From: a virus | Length of the DNA: 29,185 bases | Virus record (IMG/VR): IMGVR_UViG_3300009094_000056 | Span: 1-29,185 of that record | Direction: 5' to 3' (one strand) | Part shown: one piece after another, positions 5,913 to 19,649 of the stretch | Position numbering within the stretch: the first letter of the stretch is position 1 | How the letters are laid out: each line of letters starts with the position of its first letter | The notes under the pieces: model-generated | Told to the model about the DNA's origin: nothing | Databases searched by the model: none | The model's input: the letters and a program-made list of their open reading frames with translations, nothing else | Translations under genes and position numbers: made by a program

Positions 5913-7193
5913 ATGGCTCTAACAGAGACGCAGGTAGTTGCTGCTGAACTGGAAACAGTCCAGAGCAAAGTGCCCGTCCTGTTCGACCGCGATTCGCTTT
6001 TCTATGGCAACATCGAGAAGCGTGACGTTGAGAAGGTTTCGAATCGGGATATGAGAGTCCCGATGGAAATCCGACCCGGTGGACGGTTCGGTTACTTCTC
6101 TCCGGATGGCGGCGACCTGGGACGCGGCGATGGTCAGTCGTTCGAGAAGGCTCTCGTCTCCACTGTTCACATGAAGCACGGTGTGGAGTGGCAGAAGCGA
6201 GCACAGTGGGCCACCGACGATACGAGGAAGTCGGTTGTCAATGCTTTCCGGCAACTCTTGGCCAAGGCGATGGCAGAGTTCCGGCGTCAGGTCGATTCCA
6301 GCCTCATGACCGGGGGAAATGGTGCAGTCGCGACCATTACCTCGGTTGCAACTGCGGGTGGTCAGGATACCTTTACCTGCACCACGGACGGATTCGGTGT
6401 TCGTCTCCTCCGATATGGACAGTTCGTGTCGGTTTACGACGCCGCTTTCGCCGCTGCCAAGGTCATTGCACCCTCGGCTGGAGCCGCTCTTGTCGGAACT
6501 GCCGCGCAGATCGATTTGGTGGATTATGCGGCAAAGACATTCCGAATCAAGGGAGCCACAACGACGCCCGTCGCTGGTGACAGGATCGTTATCGAAGGGC
6601 TATCTGGGGCCAACCCAATCGCTCTGCTTGGCGTTCCCTACCATCACAACAACGCTTCGACTGGGACTTGGCTGGGATTGGACCGAGCACAGTTTCCAGA
6701 GATTCGCGCCTCCCGTGTTGCGGCGGCTGGTCCGTTGGCACCTGCACACGCGCGAGTTGCTCTGAACCGTATTGGCGACCGTATCGGACTCGATAACGGC
6801 GTCAAGGTTCAGGCCTGGATGCATCCCTGTCAGGTTCAGTCCTACGAGGAACTGGGACAGGCGGTGCAGGTCGTCAATCGGAATGGCGGCTCGCAGCAGG
6901 GTCTCGACCTCTATTTCGACGTTCAGCAAATCGCCGGTGCTCCTATCCGGCGATCGTATTCGTGGGACAAGACGCGCATCGACTTCATCGTTGGAGAGGT
7001 TTGGGGTCGTGCAGAAATGCATCCCGCAGGCTTCTACGAGGAAGAGGGGCGGCGTTTGTTCGAACTCCGAGGTGCTTCGGGTGGCGTTGCGACGGCAACG
7101 ATCTTCTACCTGACCGCCTCGTTCAATACCTTCATCAACAACCCGGCTTCGTGCAGCTACATCGATACCCTGACGGTCCCGTCGGGCTATTGA
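5913..7193 (+). CDS. Major capsid protein
   Basis: A 426-residue coat protein, well within the size range of HK97-fold capsid subunits. The N-terminal part (QVVAAELETVQSKVPVLFD, then RDMRVPMEIRPGGRFGYF, then DGGDLGRGDG) is of the kind seen in many podovirus-like coat proteins. A long helix with WQKRAQWATDDTRKSV and FRQLLAKAMAEFRRQVD corresponds to the spine helix. Residues about 140-235 (TITSVATAGGQDTFTC to AGDRIVIEGLSG) look like a beta-rich inserted domain, similar in place to the P22 coat insertion. It has a good ribosome site (AGGAG, 5899-5903), a structured leader and its own terminator, consistent with high expression. Base composition is GC-rich relative to the fibre genes. Confidence 0.88.
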   Translation: MALTETQVVAAELETVQSKVPVLFDRDSLFYGNIEKRDVEKVSNRDMRVPMEIRPGGRFGYFSPDGGDLGRGDGQSFEKALVSTVHMKHGVEWQKRAQWATDDTRKSVVNAFRQLLAKAMAEFRRQVDSSLMTGGNGAVATITSVATAGGQDTFTCTTDGFGVRLLRYGQFVSVYDAAFAAAKVIAPSAGAALVGTAAQIDLVDYAAKTFRIKGATTTPVAGDRIVIEGLSGANPIALLGVPYHHNNASTGTWLGLDRAQFPEIRASRVAAAGPLAPAHARVALNRIGDRIGLDNGVKVQAWMHPCQVQSYEELGQAVQVVNRNGGSQQGLDLYFDVQQIAGAPIRRSYSWDKTRIDFIVGEVWGRAEMHPAGFYEEEGRRLFELRGASGGVATATIFYLTASFNTFINNPASCSYIDTLTVPSGY

Positions 7194-8507: not shown

Positions 8508-8717
8508 ATGTTCAAAAAGTTTCGCAAAGCCGGAGTTACTGAGCTTCGTCCCTATGTGTATGGGGAGCCGATGAACGGGATCGTTATTTCTGAGCTGGAT
8601 AAGAAAAACGGATCTCCACAAGTTGGTGACATGATTGCGCGTGATCCAGCGAACCCTAGGGACCAGTGGCTTATCTGCGAATCTTACTTCAGAGCTAACT
8701 ACGAAGAAGTGCGATGA
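8508..8717 (+). CDS. Small hypothetical protein
   Basis: A 69-residue protein with a clear ribosome site (CAGGAG about 8 bases upstream). The sequence has a basic N-terminus and a compact beta pattern (VISELDKKNGSPQVGDMIARDP, then QWLICESYFRANYEE). The phrase GDMIARDPANPRDQWL is like small single-domain phage proteins that carry a short beta barrel, but no family is recognised. Its TGA overlaps the next ATG (ATGA), so the two are coupled. Confidence 0.6.
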   Translation: MFKKFRKAGVTELRPYVYGEPMNGIVISELDKKNGSPQVGDMIARDPANPRDQWLICESYFRANYEEVR

Positions 8718-8860
8718 AGCCACTCTGGTCGGTCACAATCGCACTCTGTAAAGGCGATGATGAAGTGGACAAACTCGATATCTCAGATACCAACCTAGAC
8801 GAGATTATCGAATCTATTGAGCGATGGTTAGAGGCGCTCAATACTCTAAAGGAGAGTTAA
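8714..8860 (+). CDS. Tiny acidic protein (48 aa)
   Basis: A short ORF read directly from the sequence: it begins MKPLWSVTIALCKGDDEVDK and ends with an amphipathic helix IIESIERWLEALNTLKES. The start overlaps the upstream stop (ATGA) and the TAA lies directly before the TTG start of the next gene, so it exactly fills the space between two genes on the same strand. That tight fit is the main reason to accept it. Function unknown. Confidence 0.55.
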   Translation: MKPLWSVTIALCKGDDEVDKLDISDTNLDEIIESIERWLEALNTLKES

Positions 8861-9076
8861 TTGGACCCTATCTCTACCTTCAACGTCGAGGAGGTTTTCA
8901 AGTTTGTTGCTCCCAAACACCCTCGCGAAAGACTGGTGGAGCAGGTTGCGAAGGATTTTGTTCTTATGGCTCAGAGCATCCTCTATAATGTTCCAGAGTC
9001 TCAGGAACGAGTTGATGCTCTGAAACTTCTTCACGAGGCAGAGCAAATCTGTATCTCCCGAATCCTGGAGGAATAA
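8861..9076 (+). CDS. Small helical-hairpin protein, possible Acb2/Tad1-type fold
   Basis: A 71-residue protein starting at TTG, 7 bases after AAGGAG at 8848-8853. The predicted form is two helices joined by a Pro-x-Ser turn: FKFVAP, a helix of about 26 residues, PES, then ERVDALKLLHEAEQICISRI. It lines up without gaps with the next protein (aromatic-x-aromatic-x-x-Pro, 26 residues, Pro-x-Ser, five residues, Ala). This layout is like the small hairpin proteins grouped with anti-CBASS Acb2 and anti-Thoeris Tad1, but the usual MWA segment of the second helix is absent here (QICIS instead), so ligand binding may be lost. It could simply be a structural paralogue. Confidence 0.5.
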   Translation: MDPISTFNVEEVFKFVAPKHPRERLVEQVAKDFVLMAQSILYNVPESQERVDALKLLHEAEQICISRILEE

Positions 9077-9077
9077 C

Positions 9078-9296
9078 ATGATTGACAAACCGTATGCTTA
9101 TCACAAACCCTCAGCAGAGGGTCTCGAAAAGATCAACCGGCTCCGTGCTCACTTTTCCGAGGGTGAGCGACTAATCAAGGAAATTTGTCCTCCGTCTCGG
9201 CAAACATCGGTCGCGATTACGGAAAACGAAACGACTGCAATGTGGGCAATCAAAGCAGTCGTGTTCAACGACCCGAAAAGCGAAGTAGAGGGATAG
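9078..9296 (+). CDS. Acb2/Tad1-like hairpin protein, candidate cyclic-nucleotide sponge
   Basis: A 72-residue protein starting just after GGAGGAATAAC. It has the pattern YAYHKP, a helix with EKINRLRAHFSEGERLIKEI, a PPSRQTSVAIT turn and a second helix ending in TAMWAIKAVVFND. The combination of a KP-x-G-x(2-4)-I-x2-LR start with Ser-Arg, Ala-Ile-Thr and MWA-x-KA in the second helix is, from memory, the hallmark of the Acb2/Tad1 hairpin family, whose members bind cyclic oligonucleotides or ADP-ribose-type signals and so block CBASS or Thoeris defence. The gene is in the late structural block rather than an early region. Family assignment is from motif recall; the bound ligand is unknown. Confidence 0.6.
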   Translation: MIDKPYAYHKPSAEGLEKINRLRAHFSEGERLIKEICPPSRQTSVAITENETTAMWAIKAVVFNDPKSEVEG

Positions 9297-9297
9297 A

Positions 9298-9951
9298 ATG
9301 GCGATCCTGGCATCCACGATCCTCCAAGGAACAAAACCGCTCCTGAATGATCCTCAGGGGATAATGTATCCGGACACTGCACTCCTCCCGCTCTTGAGTA
9401 AGGCATACCGGGAACTCCAGACCCGCTTGTCTCGCTCGGGTATGGGAGTCACGAAAGAGGTCGCAGAGAGGGTTCCTGTGAATGCCGGGGTCTCCTACCT
9501 CGGAGACGGCTCTGGTCTCCCCCTAGGATTGCTTTATCCGATTGAAATTCGGGAAGGCGCGCGAGGTGCCCTACAGAGGGACTTTCGCTATGTTGAGGAG
9601 CGAAACTGGGAACCAGCGGCGAATCCGGTCACAGAGATTCAATGTTGGGCATGGCGGGAAGAGGAAATTAAACTCTCTCCCGCCCTCACGGATCGAGACC
9701 TCTATATCAAGTTCATGAAGGGCTTGACGCCAATTACCGATGTCAACTCGAACATTACCATCCTCAATTCGGAACTCTTTCTGGAAGCTCGAACCGCAGC
9801 AATCGCATCTGCACTTCTCGGAGAGAACTACTCACGCGCTCAGAACCTCAATGCTGACGCTGAGATGTGGTATGACGTTCTAGTCGGAGGCCTCGTTAAA
9901 AGAGGTCAGCGAATGCCGGTTCGTAGGGGCCGGACACGATACCGCGCTTAA
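9298..9951 (+). CDS. Putative head-tail adaptor protein
   Basis: A 217-residue protein whose N-terminus (ILQGTKPLLNDPQGIMYPD, then ALLPLLSKAYRELQTRLSRSG) follows the pattern of phage adaptor proteins that sit under the portal and start the tail. The middle has beta strands and a Pro-rich stretch (DGSGLPLGLLYPIEIREG), and the C-terminal part is helical (EARTAAIASALLGENYSRAQNLNADAEMWY) with a very basic tail (RMPVRRGRTRYR). It starts one base after the previous stop. Position upstream of the neck/nozzle-like protein agrees with this role. Confidence 0.65.
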   Translation: MAILASTILQGTKPLLNDPQGIMYPDTALLPLLSKAYRELQTRLSRSGMGVTKEVAERVPVNAGVSYLGDGSGLPLGLLYPIEIREGARGALQRDFRYVEERNWEPAANPVTEIQCWAWREEEIKLSPALTDRDLYIKFMKGLTPITDVNSNITILNSELFLEARTAAIASALLGENYSRAQNLNADAEMWYDVLVGGLVKRGQRMPVRRGRTRYRA

Positions 9952-13626: not shown

Positions 13627-15060
13627 ATGTGGCAAAGATATAACCAAGGAAGTCACATCTTCGAGAAGTCCCTCGACAATGGTGCGAGCTGGGTTCCGAT
13701 GCCGATTAATGCGTCGAGTTTGGAAGGGACTGCTCCCCCCGGAGTTGTTCCCCCACTACCTGCAAACATTGCGTATACGAATGTCGCTAATAGTTTTATC
13801 AAGCGACAGACAATTACTCCAGCAGATACTGATGGACCTAGTCCTTATTATGCTTTGGAGGTAAGAGGACCGGCTGTTCTAAATGGTGCTCATGCAGGTA
13901 TTATCTTCAATCAGCCAAATCAAGCAATTGATGCTAAGAAATTTCGTATTATCAGCTATGCTGATCATCTCCGATTCGAGGCTGTAGCTGATTCTGAAGG
14001 CTCCACTATAGGAGGTGAGACTTTTCTAGACCGAGCTGGTAACTTTACAGTAGCTAATAATCTCAAGGCAGGATCTTTTATCGTTGCTGGAACTTGTGTT
14101 AGGGCTGTTGGTGCTCGTGGTGCGCCACCTTCTACTGGTGGTGGGATTGAACTATTTTTCCAGAGTGGAAGTGGTTATCTTCACGGGTATAACATTACTA
14201 CATCAAGTTATACTCCCATAATAATTTATGGGGAGGGCGTTAGGATAGGCCGAGGCGACCTCTACGTGGATGGTGGAGGCGCACAAGTCTTTGGGCCTAT
14301 ATATCCTGGTCGATATGATACAACCTGGGGGATTCAAACTAGTTGGTATCTTGCCTCTCACGGATCATATGGACTATTTAGCAATACTGGTCTGTATCTA
14401 AGTGGTGGATTGACGGTAGTTTCTACGTCGAATTTTATTGGCTTAATCAGATTAGCGTGCGACGTCTGGCATATTAGTGGTGAGGGTAATCAACGCCTTC
14501 ATTTCACGACGAGTGGCATCACTTACATTCAAGGCAGCGGCATCACCTTTCGGAATAATGCTCAGGTCGATACCTTCATCGTAGATTCTGGTGGAAATGC
14601 CAACTGTGGCGGAGTCTTTAAGTGTGGATGGGGATACGCTTGTCGTGCGGGTGTCTATGGAGCCTACAGCGGGAATTATTTCAACTACCAATGGACTGGC
14701 GCGATTCAGTGCTGGATTGACGCGAGCTACTTCGGAGATATTACGTTAGCCTCCGATGCACGACTCAAACGGGATTTCACGCCTCTGGTAGGTAGTCTTG
14801 ATAAAGTGCTTCAGATGCGTCCTGGCACCTTCTATTTCAAACCAATGAGCGAGGATGCTGAGGCTGATCCCCATCTTCGACTTGGTTTACTTGCGCAGGA
14901 TGTGCAGGAGGTTGCTCCAGAGCTAGTTCGTAATACTGGAATGAAGACCTACCTGACTCCAGATGGTCTTCAGCAAATCAATTACCTTGAAATGATACCG
15001 ATGTTGGTCGCCGCCATTAAGGAACTAAATCAGAAAGTAGAGGAGAAATGGAAGAACTAG
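13627..15060 (+). CDS. Tail fibre/spike with C-terminal S74 self-cleaving chaperone
   Basis: A 477-residue fibre. The C-terminal 102 residues match the peptidase S74 (endosialidase-type) intramolecular chaperone: ASDARLKRDF with the cleavage Ser at 376 and the catalytic Lys at 381, then LRLGLLAQDVQEVAPELV and INYLEMIPMLVAAIKELNQ ending in a coiled coil. This domain helps the trimer fold and then cuts itself off. The body is a Gly/Ser/Thr-rich beta structure with many short repeats; the N-terminus (KSLDNGASWVPMPINAS) probably attaches it to the tail. The middle is clearly AT-richer than the capsid genes (line 14041-14100 has 22 G/C in 60 against 37 in 60 at 6301-6360), a sign of exchange. Confidence 0.85.
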   Translation: MWQRYNQGSHIFEKSLDNGASWVPMPINASSLEGTAPPGVVPPLPANIAYTNVANSFIKRQTITPADTDGPSPYYALEVRGPAVLNGAHAGIIFNQPNQAIDAKKFRIISYADHLRFEAVADSEGSTIGGETFLDRAGNFTVANNLKAGSFIVAGTCVRAVGARGAPPSTGGGIELFFQSGSGYLHGYNITTSSYTPIIIYGEGVRIGRGDLYVDGGGAQVFGPIYPGRYDTTWGIQTSWYLASHGSYGLFSNTGLYLSGGLTVVSTSNFIGLIRLACDVWHISGEGNQRLHFTTSGITYIQGSGITFRNNAQVDTFIVDSGGNANCGGVFKCGWGYACRAGVYGAYSGNYFNYQWTGAIQCWIDASYFGDITLASDARLKRDFTPLVGSLDKVLQMRPGTFYFKPMSEDAEADPHLRLGLLAQDVQEVAPELVRNTGMKTYLTPDGLQQINYLEMIPMLVAAIKELNQKVEEKWKN

Positions 15061-16177: not shown

Positions 16178-17092
16178 ATGGCTAAGAGACCCGGCTCCCT
16201 TTGGGTTGAAGGCAACAACCTTAACTACGTAGATGCCTCCTCTAGGGAGTGGTCCTATGCTGGCACATTCATCAAGAGTATAGGATTCGCTCGTCCTGGC
16301 TCTCTATGGGTAGAGGGTTATTACATCTACTACGTCAACGAAGCTGGCAACACCGTCTTTAGACTAGAGGCCGTTTGGAATGGTGAGTATCATGGGAGAA
16401 CGGGAAGCCTCTGGGTCGAAGGGGATAAGCTTCGCCATATTGGAGGAGGAGAGGCTGCAGAGTTCCATGCTCATTCTGATATTACCCATCAAAACGTAGC
16501 TCATACAGATACCGGAATCGCTACTCACACCAACACTCATACAAACATTGGGCATCAAAACGTTGCTCACGTCAATTATCATCAAAACGTAGCTCACGTA
16601 AATACACACACGAATTACGAGCACGCGAATTATCATGGAGACACTCATACTAACATCGCACATACGGATGAGTGGGCTGTTCTGGAGCATGGGGATACGC
16701 ATTCCAACATTACTCCTTATAGTTATCATCATGCAGATTGTTGGCGCTACGATCGGGGCACTGTAATTGACCATCACGACCATCAGGATTGGCCGGGTTA
16801 TCCCCATAATGATGGTTACGTCTTTCAGGATCACTGTGATTGGCACGATAACCTAGCTCATGCGAATAACCATTACGACTCACCGGGTCAGGCCGCGCAC
16901 ACCAATTATCACGGAAACGTAGATCATCAGAACTACTACACTCAAGTCGCGCACACAAATAATCATGGGGACACGCATACGGATATTGCTCACAGCGATG
17001 TTCCTCATGCGAATCATAACGACACGATTCACCAAAATGTCGCCCATGCGAATGTCACTCATCAGGATCAGCCGGTTCTCATAGGACTCTAA
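16178..17092 (+). CDS. His-Xaa-[Asn/Asp] repeat protein, candidate radical SAM substrate
   Basis: A 304-residue protein in two parts. Residues 4-96 hold three units of about 35 residues, each opening with R(P/T)GSLWVEG at 4, 39 and 74, likely a small beta domain that anchors it to the tail. Residues 97-295 contain 39 His, of which 36 are followed by any residue and then Asn or Asp, spaced mostly 4-5 residues apart. HQNVAH occurs four times (104, 126, 135, 285) with different codons, and HGDTHTNIAHTD is echoed as HGDTHTDIAHSD, so the protein pattern is selected and old. Only two Cys (188, 220) lie in the region. The gene overlaps the radical SAM gene by one base. Either a modified fibre, a metal-binding shaft, or both; no similar family is known to me by name. 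Confidence 0.75.
   Translation: MAKRPGSLWVEGNNLNYVDASSREWSYAGTFIKSIGFARPGSLWVEGYYIYYVNEAGNTVFRLEAVWNGEYHGRTGSLWVEGDKLRHIGGGEAAEFHAHSDITHQNVAHTDTGIATHTNTHTNIGHQNVAHVNYHQNVAHVNTHTNYEHANYHGDTHTNIAHTDEWAVLEHGDTHSNITPYSYHHADCWRYDRGTVIDHHDHQDWPGYPHNDGYVFQDHCDWHDNLAHANNHYDSPGQAAHTNYHGNVDHQNYYTQVAHTNNHGDTHTDIAHSDVPHANHNDTIHQNVAHANVTHQDQPVLIGL
16187..16423 (+). repeat. Three PGSLWVEG units (35-residue period)
   Basis: Encodes R(P/T)GSLWVEG at residues 4-12, 39-47 and 74-82 of the His-rich protein. Each is followed by a strand ending in Tyr-Val or His-Ile. The DNA of the three copies differs at many third positions, so they are not a recent duplication. Confidence 0.85.
16466..17062 (+). repeat. His-Xaa-[Asn/Asp] repeat region
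   Basis: Encodes residues 97-295 of the His-rich protein. His makes up about one in five residues, and 36 of 39 fit His-Xaa-[Asn/Asp]; the exceptions are His97, His184 and His200. Synonymous codon differences between copies of HQNVAH (16487, 16553, 16580, 17030) show selection on the protein. Confidence 0.9.
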
Positions 17093-18306
17093 TGACTGTC
17101 GAATATCTTCCCGTTGGTATCGCCTGCAACATCGCATGCAAATACTGCTATCAGGAATCGCAGAGAGATGCAGGCAATATCAACACGCCGCGAGACTGGG
17201 ACCGGGTGAAGTTTCAACTCGACCGTCTTGGAGTCGACTTTGCAGTTTTTGGTGGTGAGCCTCTCCTCACTCCGATGGTGCACCTCGAAGAAGTATTTAA
17301 GTATGGCTTCGAGAAGCACGGTAGGAACGGGATTCAGACGAACGGATCTCTCATCACCGATGAACACATCGAGATGTTTTACAAGTATAAGGTCCACGTA
17401 GGAATCTCGATAGATGGCCCCGGTGAGCTGAATAGTGTTCGCTGCACGAACGATTTGACTGCTAAGACAGAGCTTGCGATCAAGAAGCTATGTGATCGGG
17501 GAATCCCTCCATCCCTTATCATGACGATCCATAAAGGGAATAATGATATTCCTGCTCTCACTCGCTGGCTTGATAGTCTTATGTCTATCGGGCTACGCTA
17601 CGTTAACTTCCACGAAATGGAGCAGGAGTGCGGACAAGAGCAAGAAGCACTCTCCGAGGAAGATAACATAAAGAATTTCCTCGCTCTCTATGAATGGACG
17701 AAGCGTTCTAAGGTTCACGCAAACCCGTTCGTCGACATTCAATCCCTCCTCACCGAAGAACAACCGAGAGCGAACTGTGTCTGGCATAACTGTGACCCTC
17801 AGACGACCGAAGCGGTCCAAGGAATAAGTCCCGATGGTTCGATGTCAAATTGCGGTCGAGCTTACAAAGACGGGGTCAACTGGCTTAAAGCTGACACTCC
17901 CGGCTACGAGCGATATATCGCGCTTTATCACACTCCTCAAGAGTTTGGAGGGTGTAAAGACTGTAAATATTTCGCTTTCTGCAAAGGGCAGTGTCCTGGA
18001 ACTGCTATCGGAGGAGATTGGAGAAACCGAAGTCTAGAATGCCGTCTTTGGTATTCACTCTTCGAAACGATTGCGGCCGACAATAAAGACAAGCTGCTCT
18101 CTCCTGAGATAGTAGATAGGAAGGTTCAGGATCTCCTTGGTCGCTGGAGTGTTCCACAGAATACAGACCACGGAGATAAGCACGGAGATTCTCCCCACGG
18201 GGACCAGCATGGAGATCATACCGACTACGGTCCTGGCGTCGAAGCAGAATTCTTAACAGAGAGACCAGAATGGCTACAGCAACCGGAAGAAAGCAAGAGC
18301 GTTTAG
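17092..18306 (+). CDS. Radical SAM/SPASM maturase with HGD-repeat tail
   Basis: A 404-residue radical SAM enzyme. The CxxxCxxC cluster is Cys12/Cys16/Cys19 (CNIACKYC), the SAM-binding GGEP is at 54-57, and a TNGSLI segment near 83 fits the barrel. A SPASM region follows: Cys229, Cys234, Cys254, then Cys288-x2-Cys291-x5-Cys297-x3-Cys301 and Cys317, enough for two auxiliary iron-sulphur clusters. SPASM enzymes of this type usually modify peptides (crosslinks, epimerisation or decarboxylation). The tail at 360-377 has HGD four times and HTD once, matching the repeat of the neighbouring protein. It overlaps the His-rich gene by 1 bp and the next gene by 37 bp. A role in modifying the His-rich protein is inferred from context. 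Confidence 0.88.
   Translation: MTVEYLPVGIACNIACKYCYQESQRDAGNINTPRDWDRVKFQLDRLGVDFAVFGGEPLLTPMVHLEEVFKYGFEKHGRNGIQTNGSLITDEHIEMFYKYKVHVGISIDGPGELNSVRCTNDLTAKTELAIKKLCDRGIPPSLIMTIHKGNNDIPALTRWLDSLMSIGLRYVNFHEMEQECGQEQEALSEEDNIKNFLALYEWTKRSKVHANPFVDIQSLLTEEQPRANCVWHNCDPQTTEAVQGISPDGSMSNCGRAYKDGVNWLKADTPGYERYIALYHTPQEFGGCKDCKYFAFCKGQCPGTAIGGDWRNRSLECRLWYSLFETIAADNKDKLLSPEIVDRKVQDLLGRWSVPQNTDHGDKHGDSPHGDQHGDHTDYGPGVEAEFLTERPEWLQQPEESKSV
18169..18222 (+). repeat. HGD-type repeat tail of the radical SAM enzyme
   Basis: Encodes residues 360-377 of the enzyme: five His units, all His-Xaa-Asp, followed by YGPG. The same His-Xaa-Asp/Asn unit fills the neighbouring substrate candidate. It may be a substrate mimic, a tether or a metal-binding tail. 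Confidence 0.85.
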
Positions 18307-19649
18307 ATTTTACCATCCCTGAGTTCTTCCGAACCGTTTGGGTCTCGGAGAATGCTAGGGATACCTGGGAGCCTCGCATCCACGCTATAGCCTCAAACTG
18401 GCCTTACGTGGAGCGGGCTACTTTAGTTTCAGGAATGCGAGAGGGAATCCTCCAAAGCATTTCTCCGGTAGATCTCCCGATGGTTCATAACTGGTCATCG
18501 GAGCATAAGATTCCGATGGTCATTGTAGGAATGGAAGCGGCCTCTGGTCTCTCTTATGGGAATACTTCTATTCCTTACGAGCAGGGAAAGCCATTCTCTT
18601 ATCGGATTTACTTTGGACATTCCCCAGAGAACTTCCAGACGGCATGGAAAGAAGGTAATCAAGCAGTTATAGGGAGAATGTTGGGTTATCCTCCCTGCTG
18701 TATCGAATTTTTCCAGAAGCACTGGACCCAGAACGGTTGGAGAGACCTAACTTACCATTCTTACATAGAGCCAGAGCAGCGGAATCTGATGTATAACAAC
18801 GTGCTCCTCCGTTCCTTAGGAGTCCGAGCCGTTTCGCATCTTCCCTGCTCTGTAGCTTGCCGACCTTCTTGCATAATAGGAATGGACGTATTCAAGGTCA
18901 TGGAGCAGTGCGGCCATCAGGCAGAGCTGGTCGATTGGATGAAGACCCTTCTGGCTATGCCGATGCTATGGTCCTCACTCCACGGAGTAGCAATTATCAC
19001 GACGCCCATATTCAAGTTGATTAGTGCGACCGAACCGCTTGCGAAAGTCGCTGAATTGCGGCTGCTGAGTGACTACTATCCCGATGAGGGTGCGAGTGGA
19101 AATACCTTTCCCTTCCAGCACTTCAAGACGCTGAAGGTGAATATCTCCAGAAGTTCTGACTTCCTCGATAACGGATTCATGAGCCGTAGTTCGATGGAGA
19201 GTGCTCACAGGTTCATTATTTCTCTCACACCGAATCGAATCGAGGGGATGGTTGGTAACATCCTCGACCTAGGTTGTGGGAATGGAAAGCTACTTCTCGA
19301 AATTCAGAAGGAGCATCAGGATACGGTTCTACATGGTGTAGATACTAAGGATATCAAAGCACTCGGCTGGAATTTCTATCGCACTGATATTTACGATTTC
19401 GAGTGGGAGAAGCAATACGAGCTTACCCTGATGTCTGTTGAGCGATTGTTCGAGGCTAATCCGGATGCAGCTATCGACCTCCTGGAGACAATCGCTCGGT
19501 ATTCACGGTATCTCCTGCTCTCAACCTATAACCAGTGGATGGGAGGATTCGAAGAAGTAATCGATAAACTTTTCAGCGTGGTCACAGTAGGTAGAGATCC
19601 CGTCTTGGGATTCGAAGGTAAGCTTCTGGAGAGAAAACATGCCATTTGA
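18270..19649 (+). CDS. DUF483-like Cys-rich domain fused to class I methyltransferase
   Basis: A 459-residue fusion. Residues about 100-210 have GYPPCC (139-144) followed by IEFFQKHW, and LPCSVACRPSC with Cys193, Cys197 and Cys201; this GYPxCC...PCSxxC layout recalls the DUF483 family, whose function is unknown. Residues about 325-459 look like a class I SAM-dependent methyltransferase: motif I ILDLGCGNGK (331-340), an acidic strand end at GVDTKD and a later YELTLMSVERL strand. It overlaps the radical SAM gene by 37 bp, so the two should be made together. I infer a second modifying step on the His-rich protein. A nucleic-acid or small-molecule methyltransferase is not excluded. Confidence 0.65.
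   Translation: MATATGRKQERLDFTIPEFFRTVWVSENARDTWEPRIHAIASNWPYVERATLVSGMREGILQSISPVDLPMVHNWSSEHKIPMVIVGMEAASGLSYGNTSIPYEQGKPFSYRIYFGHSPENFQTAWKEGNQAVIGRMLGYPPCCIEFFQKHWTQNGWRDLTYHSYIEPEQRNLMYNNVLLRSLGVRAVSHLPCSVACRPSCIIGMDVFKVMEQCGHQAELVDWMKTLLAMPMLWSSLHGVAIITTPIFKLISATEPLAKVAELRLLSDYYPDEGASGNTFPFQHFKTLKVNISRSSDFLDNGFMSRSSMESAHRFIISLTPNRIEGMVGNILDLGCGNGKLLLEIQKEHQDTVLHGVDTKDIKALGWNFYRTDIYDFEWEKQYELTLMSVERLFEANPDAAIDLLETIARYSRYLLLSTYNQWMGGFEEVIDKLFSVVTVGRDPVLGFEGKLLERKHAI

Follow-up and report, generated by a model that had tools for sequence, protein, structure and literature searches.

Organization of the locus

The window analyzed here is a complete IMG/VR record of 29,185 bases, and the two genes under study lie on its plus strand between the major head protein gene (5913–7193, plus strand; phrog_14242, E 2.4e-5) and the gene of a SU10-like adaptor. 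The boundaries given for both genes by an earlier sequence-only reading proved right: P1 (8861–9076) starts with TTG and encodes a protein of 71 aa, and P2 (9078–9296) starts with ATG and encodes a protein of 72 aa. P1 abuts P2, which in turn abuts the adaptor-like head-tail gene (9298–9951, plus strand); the latter gives a weak SU10_adaptor match (20.6 bits vs. the cut-off of 27), and the adaptor of contig L010 scores above the cut-off. Putative ribosome-binding sites, read by eye, were found on the plus strand for both genes: an AAGGAG-like sequence precedes the TTG start of P1 (8848–8853), and the GGAGG of P2 lies within the 3′ end of P1 (9067–9071). When the surroundings of P1 and P2 were scanned for promoters and terminators, nothing promoter-like was seen and terminators were not in excess. 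Directly upstream of P1 there is an ORF of 48 aa (8714–8860, plus strand; positioned via the L002 offset), and an ORF of 47–50 aa likewise precedes P1 in the relatives L003, L036 and L044. The gene ahead of this ORF (8508–8717) is replaced in relatives by that of an unrelated-looking 76-aa protein (L003:3438–3668), and the stretch between the zinc-ribbon and adaptor genes is thus a variable accessory site.

Several other genes of the window are of independent interest. The region 16178–18306, near the tail-fibre gene, encodes a 304-aa protein with many HTNxxHQNVAH-like His/Asn repeats, directly followed by a radical SAM protein (PF04055, 1.5e-16) with a Cys-rich C-terminal part; the two look like a phage peptide-modification pair. 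The radical SAM gene is adjoined by a gene (18270–19649) whose product has a methyltransferase-like C-terminal part (Methyltransf_23, 26.7 bits vs. the cut-off of 27), and the product of 13627–15060, in which the chaperone domain of S74 endosialidase was recognized (54 bits), is probably a tail fibre.

P2 is a canonical hairpin protein

P2 is clearly an Acb2/Tad1-hairpin protein, as it matches the Pfam family PF24729 (Acb2_Tad1_hairpin) with 49.4 bits at a curated cut-off of 27, and PHROG 1454 (phrog_1454) at 6.1e-10. The AlphaFold2 model built from 35 sequences consists of two antiparallel helices (residues 13–36 and 41–63; mean pLDDT 88). The first Foldseek match of this model in PDB was T4 Acb2 (Vs.4), with the probability of 0.97 but E of 0.24, and VIA-align superimposed it on Vs.4 (Z 6.7, rmsd 2.6, 61 residues aligned) and on Acb2 8h2x (Z 6.0, rmsd 2.3, 59 residues), the latter method being non-discriminating here, since other helical hairpins reach equal Z. 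Among PDB sequences the P2 profile found 9ptq, 'Acb2 homolog 43' (E 0.0081), and more weakly PaP2 Acb2 (0.18), Vs.4 (0.29) and Tad1 (1.4); a phmmer search of PDB sequences with P2 returned no match.

Acb2 forms homo-hexamers that offer three sites for dinucleotides and two for trinucleotides; it binds cyclic oligonucleotides and has anti-CBASS activity. With the Acb2 proteins (T4 Vs.4, PaP2 p26/PaMx33 gp24) P2 shares the hairpin fold, the PF24729 domain and the dinucleotide-pocket pattern of an aromatic and a basic residue: in the alignment, Tyr8 of P2 corresponds to Tyr8 of T4 and Tyr11 of PaMx33, and Arg23 to Lys26 of PaMx33, a dinucleotide-pocket residue with a role in phosphate contact. 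The pocket positions Tyr8, Arg23 and Arg41, as well as Thr48 and Trp56, show no variation in the 35 P2 rows compared. According to PMC12657218, Tyr8 of T4 Acb2 is required for dinucleotide binding, and the substitutions Y8A and F82C abolish the effect of Acb2 on Panoptes; the Y8A effect is also described in PMC12657230.

The structures and ligand ranges of known sponges were taken from PMC12043709, PMC10419184 and PMC11722364. In contrast to Acb2, P2 has only 72 aa and lacks the inter-helix insertion, and its sequence match to Acb2 itself is weak. The C-terminal helical hairpin of Tad1 shares PF24729 by name; the N-terminal beta-sheet domain of Tad1, as described in PMC12043709, is absent from predicted P1 and P2, both of about 72 aa. 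In length, gapless alignment and residue pattern P2 resembles the short PF24729/phrog_1454 proteins of Paenibacillus, Mycobacterium, Gordonia and Arthrobacter phages (and 9ptq), among which it constitutes its own subfamily (IDKPYAYHKPS...MWAIKAVVFNDP). One of the short proteins, gp54 of Paenibacillus phage Heath (L155:1989–2204), has 71 aa and matches the PF24729 hairpin with 86 bits, yet it and its relatives in many Paenibacillus and Brevibacillus phages are labelled 'putative phosphomannomutase', which is a propagated misannotation.

P1 is a diverged relative

No Pfam match at E ≤ 10 was obtained for the P1 of the window or for three of its homologs, so that the PF24729 cut-off is not reached and P1 should be regarded as a diverged relative rather than a member of the curated family. 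PADLOC produced no match, P1 included, and tblastn of P1 in phages found none either. phrog_1454 matched the window P1 at 3.5e-4, and its homologs just at 0.14, 0.3 or not at all. A home-made family profile of 24 diverse members, from which every P2 was excluded, was searched against about 5,130 peptides. It scored P1 at 23.5 bits (E 1.3e-5) and the P1 homologs at 15.8–16.8, the best of 2000 shuffles reaching 6.3 and the best non-family peptides about 6–8 bits. When each member was left out in turn, PaMx33 Acb2 scored 4.1 and the remaining 23 members 41–107, which makes the score of P1 intermediate. The comparison of P1 with the wider family by hhalign gave 88.5% probability (E 2.7e-6). The model of P1, built from four P1 sequences with P2 left out, contains helices at 21–43 and 48–70 (mean pLDDT 84.7). 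Among its top 13 matches in a viral structure library 11 were Acb2/Tad1 hairpin proteins (probability 0.99–1.00), and the other two were a nameless protein and an 'uncharacterized' one of Gordonia phage GMA6, with E ≥ 0.001 in all cases. PDB fold matches (Foldseek, VIA-align) were weak and comprised mixed helical proteins, Tad1 and Vs.4 being listed with no clear winner, and the P1 profile retrieved chance matches only from PDB sequences.

Taken together, the remote profile, the hairpin model and the viral fold matches indicate that P1 is a diverged relative within the Acb2/Tad1 hairpin superfamily in the broad sense. The assignment of both proteins to this group, proposed in the sequence-only reading, is thus retained, P2 being placed by its Pfam match, and P1 by a remote profile match together with its fold. 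As for the profile search suggested there, P2 passed the PF24729 cut-off, and P1 missed Pfam and was found by the home-made profile; the expected helical hairpin is present in the predicted single-chain structures of both proteins.

The short PF24729/phrog_1454 proteins are the closest sequence group for P1 too, but P1 lacks both the Pfam match and the Arg. The column of Lys26 is basic in 23 of the 25 family rows and is occupied by Ala or Ser in all four P1 rows, and the column of Tyr8 holds Phe or Trp in P1, so the aromatic residue is kept. Compared with Acb2, P1 therefore has Phe/Trp in place of Tyr and no basic residue, and it does not show the Acb2 pocket pattern. This basic residue is the telling loss of P1, not the MWA motif, the absence of which had been emphasized: Trp stands at that column in just 13 of the 25 family rows outside P1 and P2, and is not diagnostic. 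The loss of the basic residue agrees with the suggestion that one of the two proteins has changed its ligand; it could also mean that nucleotide binding is gone altogether. At the columns of Arg67 (PaMx33) and Thr68 (T4) P1 has Gln and Lys. Arg occupies the former in 14 of 25 family rows, and its partner at the latter is then always Thr or Asn. Of the 11 rows without Arg, 6 are basic at the latter column (Fisher p 0.0026, the rows not being independent). As a separate observation, a PF24729 match over the cut-off was present in 12 of 392 genomes of the Limnoglobus roseus phylum (L137–L148), and in a subset of these members the two columns are changed to Ala/Arg.

P1 is under purifying selection, with dN 0.060 and dS 1.13 for L003–L036, and dN 0.228 and dS 1.19 for the window and L003. 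The dN/dS ratio is about 0.05–0.2 where dS is measurable, some pairs being saturated; the frame is intact in every copy seen, and the central segment is almost invariant.

Relationship between P1 and P2

P1 and P2 had tentatively been read as a duplicated pair on the basis of a gapless motif. The spacing is indeed present (FKFVAP/YAYHKP, 26 residues, PxS, five residues, Ala), but the pairwise likeness is within chance: in the proposed register P1 and P2 are identical at 7 of 59 positions, the best gapless score falls in a different register, and shuffled sequences reached it in 49 of 300 trials. BLASTP yielded no alignment of P1 and P2 at E ≤ 100, and when a P1 alignment (3 rows) was compared with one of P2 (35 rows) by hhalign, the probability was 0.3%. 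P1 does align beyond chance with some other members, among them gp9 of Arthrobacter phage Jasmine and one protein from a genome of the Limnoglobus roseus phylum (0 of 300 shuffles in each case), and not with several other members. Since the likeness to P2 is at chance level and other members align better, P1 is no recent duplicate of P2. The best tree places P1 beside proteins of Gordonia phages (support 89/83, not starred), a grouping that is provisional because of long branches. The reading as a duplicated pair is accordingly not supported, P1 aligning better with other family branches than with P2; the P1+P2 clade was not rejected by the topology test (p-AU 0.294), which leaves room for an old common origin.

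The nearest tree group comprises Schomber gp21, UBSmoodge gp23 and GMA6 Orf10, which have lost the basic site as P1 has, and are encoded beside the portal gene, but unlike P1 have Pro or Ile at the Tyr8 column and are only about 19–24% identical to it.

Presence and exchange of P1 and P2 among phages

P1 was found in 9 records including the window, and repeated searches, among them a wider one (alignment A4), gave the same 8 contigs. All belong to a single phage clade, and wherever the surroundings of P1 were read (8 of the 9 records, all but L046), it occupies one and the same site among the head genes. P2 directly follows P1 in 7 of the 8 P1 records with a readable next gene; the L046 contig ends there. 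The pair is not obligate. L044 carries P1 without P2, no PF24729 match being found anywhere in its 28.5-kb fragment, and its nucleotide identity to L003 is 96.0% in the zinc-ribbon gene, 91.8% in P1 and 93.5% in the adaptor gene. Conversely, L007 has the same adaptor and P2, with no P1 within the 6.6 kb read. In L036 the P2 protein is 72% identical to that of L003, while P1 and the adaptor are at 91% and 96%, so P2 was probably exchanged in place.

P2-type genes behave as cargo, their neighbours varying from phage to phage and including adaptor, terminase, RecA, AAA and cold-shock genes. The search for P2 relatives in viral contigs gave 40 loci (116 with alignment, the best 80 of 116 being kept), and P1 is present at 6 of the 40. 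Eight of ten hand-chosen nearby proteins matched Pfam families at E ≤ 0.001, namely terminase, RecA, AAA_24 (two), cold-shock domain (two) and SU10 adaptor (two, one of them below its cut-off); the other two had no match.

A pairing similar to that of P1 and P2 exists in Gordonia Bendigovirus phages. Schomber encodes the P1-like gp21, which has Gly at the Lys26 column and aligns with P1 in BLASTP (E 4e-5 for the single pair, 10/28 identical), and the canonical gp23, with the portal gene in between; in both Schomber and UBSmoodge three hairpin-family matches, two of them over the cut-off, lie near terminase and portal. Genes like gp21 occur in 13 Gordonia records, 10 of which also showed the canonical gene (eight plus ScarletRaider and UBSmoodge), with FlyingTortilla left out and one of the two GMA6 records scanned. 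The canonical gene is again dispensable, as GMA6 (NC_030906), bearing the P1-like Orf10, gave no canonical match at E ≤ 1. In Arthrobacter phage Jasmine the canonical gp9 adjoins the diverged gp10, and Brad keeps a gene of the gp10 type with no family match over the cut-off. Gp25 of NoodlelyBoi, considered as a partner of the canonical gp26, was rejected, being no hairpin protein by Pfam or PHROGs. An impression that pairs are rare, based on counts of one place per record, was also dropped, since profile searches gave two to three matches in Jasmine, Schomber and UBSmoodge. As a side observation, in the stretch L162:2980–5268 of Schomber a canonical hairpin gene is located between the portal gene and an RNA ligase–ADP-ribosyltransferase pair, a possible counter-defence cluster.

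The position among head genes, which had been called unusual for anti-defence genes, turned out to be common in the family, members being encoded between capsid protease and capsid gene, after portal, and beside terminase. With the Gordonia and Arthrobacter pairs, this means that the window is not alone in either the site or the doubling. In a term search of one open-access library, no listed title or abstract bore on paired or mixed Acb2-type proteins.

Possible functions of the pair

We put at about 50% the probability that P2 is a mobile Acb2-type cyclic-nucleotide sponge, and P1 a resident diverged hairpin protein with a changed ligand or role. The two-helix hairpins of P2 would assemble, presumably into hexamers, and capture second messengers of host immunity, leaving the effectors switched off. 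P1, keeping the predicted fold and the aromatic residue and lacking the basic one at the Lys26 position, would reside at the head-gene site and most likely form homo-oligomers of its own, a second sponge whose target would be another messenger or which would use the trinucleotide site only.

The sequence-only reading had also allowed for a mixed oligomer, in which P1 could be a non-binding subunit modifying the specificity or affinity of P2. The two genes are adjacent, probably co-translated, and together in 7 of the 8 readable P1 records; a P1-like and a canonical gene co-occur in Schomber and UBSmoodge, and a diverged and a canonical one are neighbours in Jasmine. However, P1 stands alone in L044 and P2 in L007, the P2 of L036 was apparently exchanged independently while P1 stayed, a P1-like gene exists without the canonical one in GMA6, and Brad retains the gp10-type gene with no match over the cut-off; these cases disfavour the mixed oligomer as an obligate state, and we consider co-assembly improbable. 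Somewhat unlikely, in our estimation, is that P1 uses the same hairpin as a component of the virion or in head assembly and is devoid of an anti-defence role, P2 being the sole sponge. The constant head-gene site within one phage clade, the portal-adjoining P1-like genes of Gordonia phages, the lost pocket residue and the persistence of P1 where P2 is absent would all suit such a role. Yet members with intact pocket residues are also found among head genes, so that location cannot separate a sponge from a head protein, and since the relative L007 has P2 and the same adaptor but no P1, P1 is not essential to the head.

That P1 is a decaying, functionless former sponge would be in line with the loss of the basic residue, of His and of other conserved positions; the low dN/dS ratio, the intact frames and the almost invariant central segment speak against it, and in view of these selection data decay is disfavoured and very improbable. 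A broader proposal, which we regard as speculative and rather doubtful, is that P1, together with the P1-like proteins of Gordonia phages, represents a second, unnamed hairpin branch, which stays beside head genes in phages that are unrelated, whereas the canonical sponges next to it are gained and lost. With the basic contact of the dinucleotide pocket gone, this branch would bind another signal, e.g., trinucleotides only. If this were true, such proteins would overcome one defence and yet leave untouched the pool of dinucleotides guarded by Panoptes.

Since family scores miss P1-type proteins lying below the cut-off, phages may hold more sponges than have been counted. Comparison of the P1-type and canonical proteins of one phage would offer a direct view of how the pocket sets ligand choice, and would bear on how phages handle the Panoptes dilemma presented in PMC12657218.
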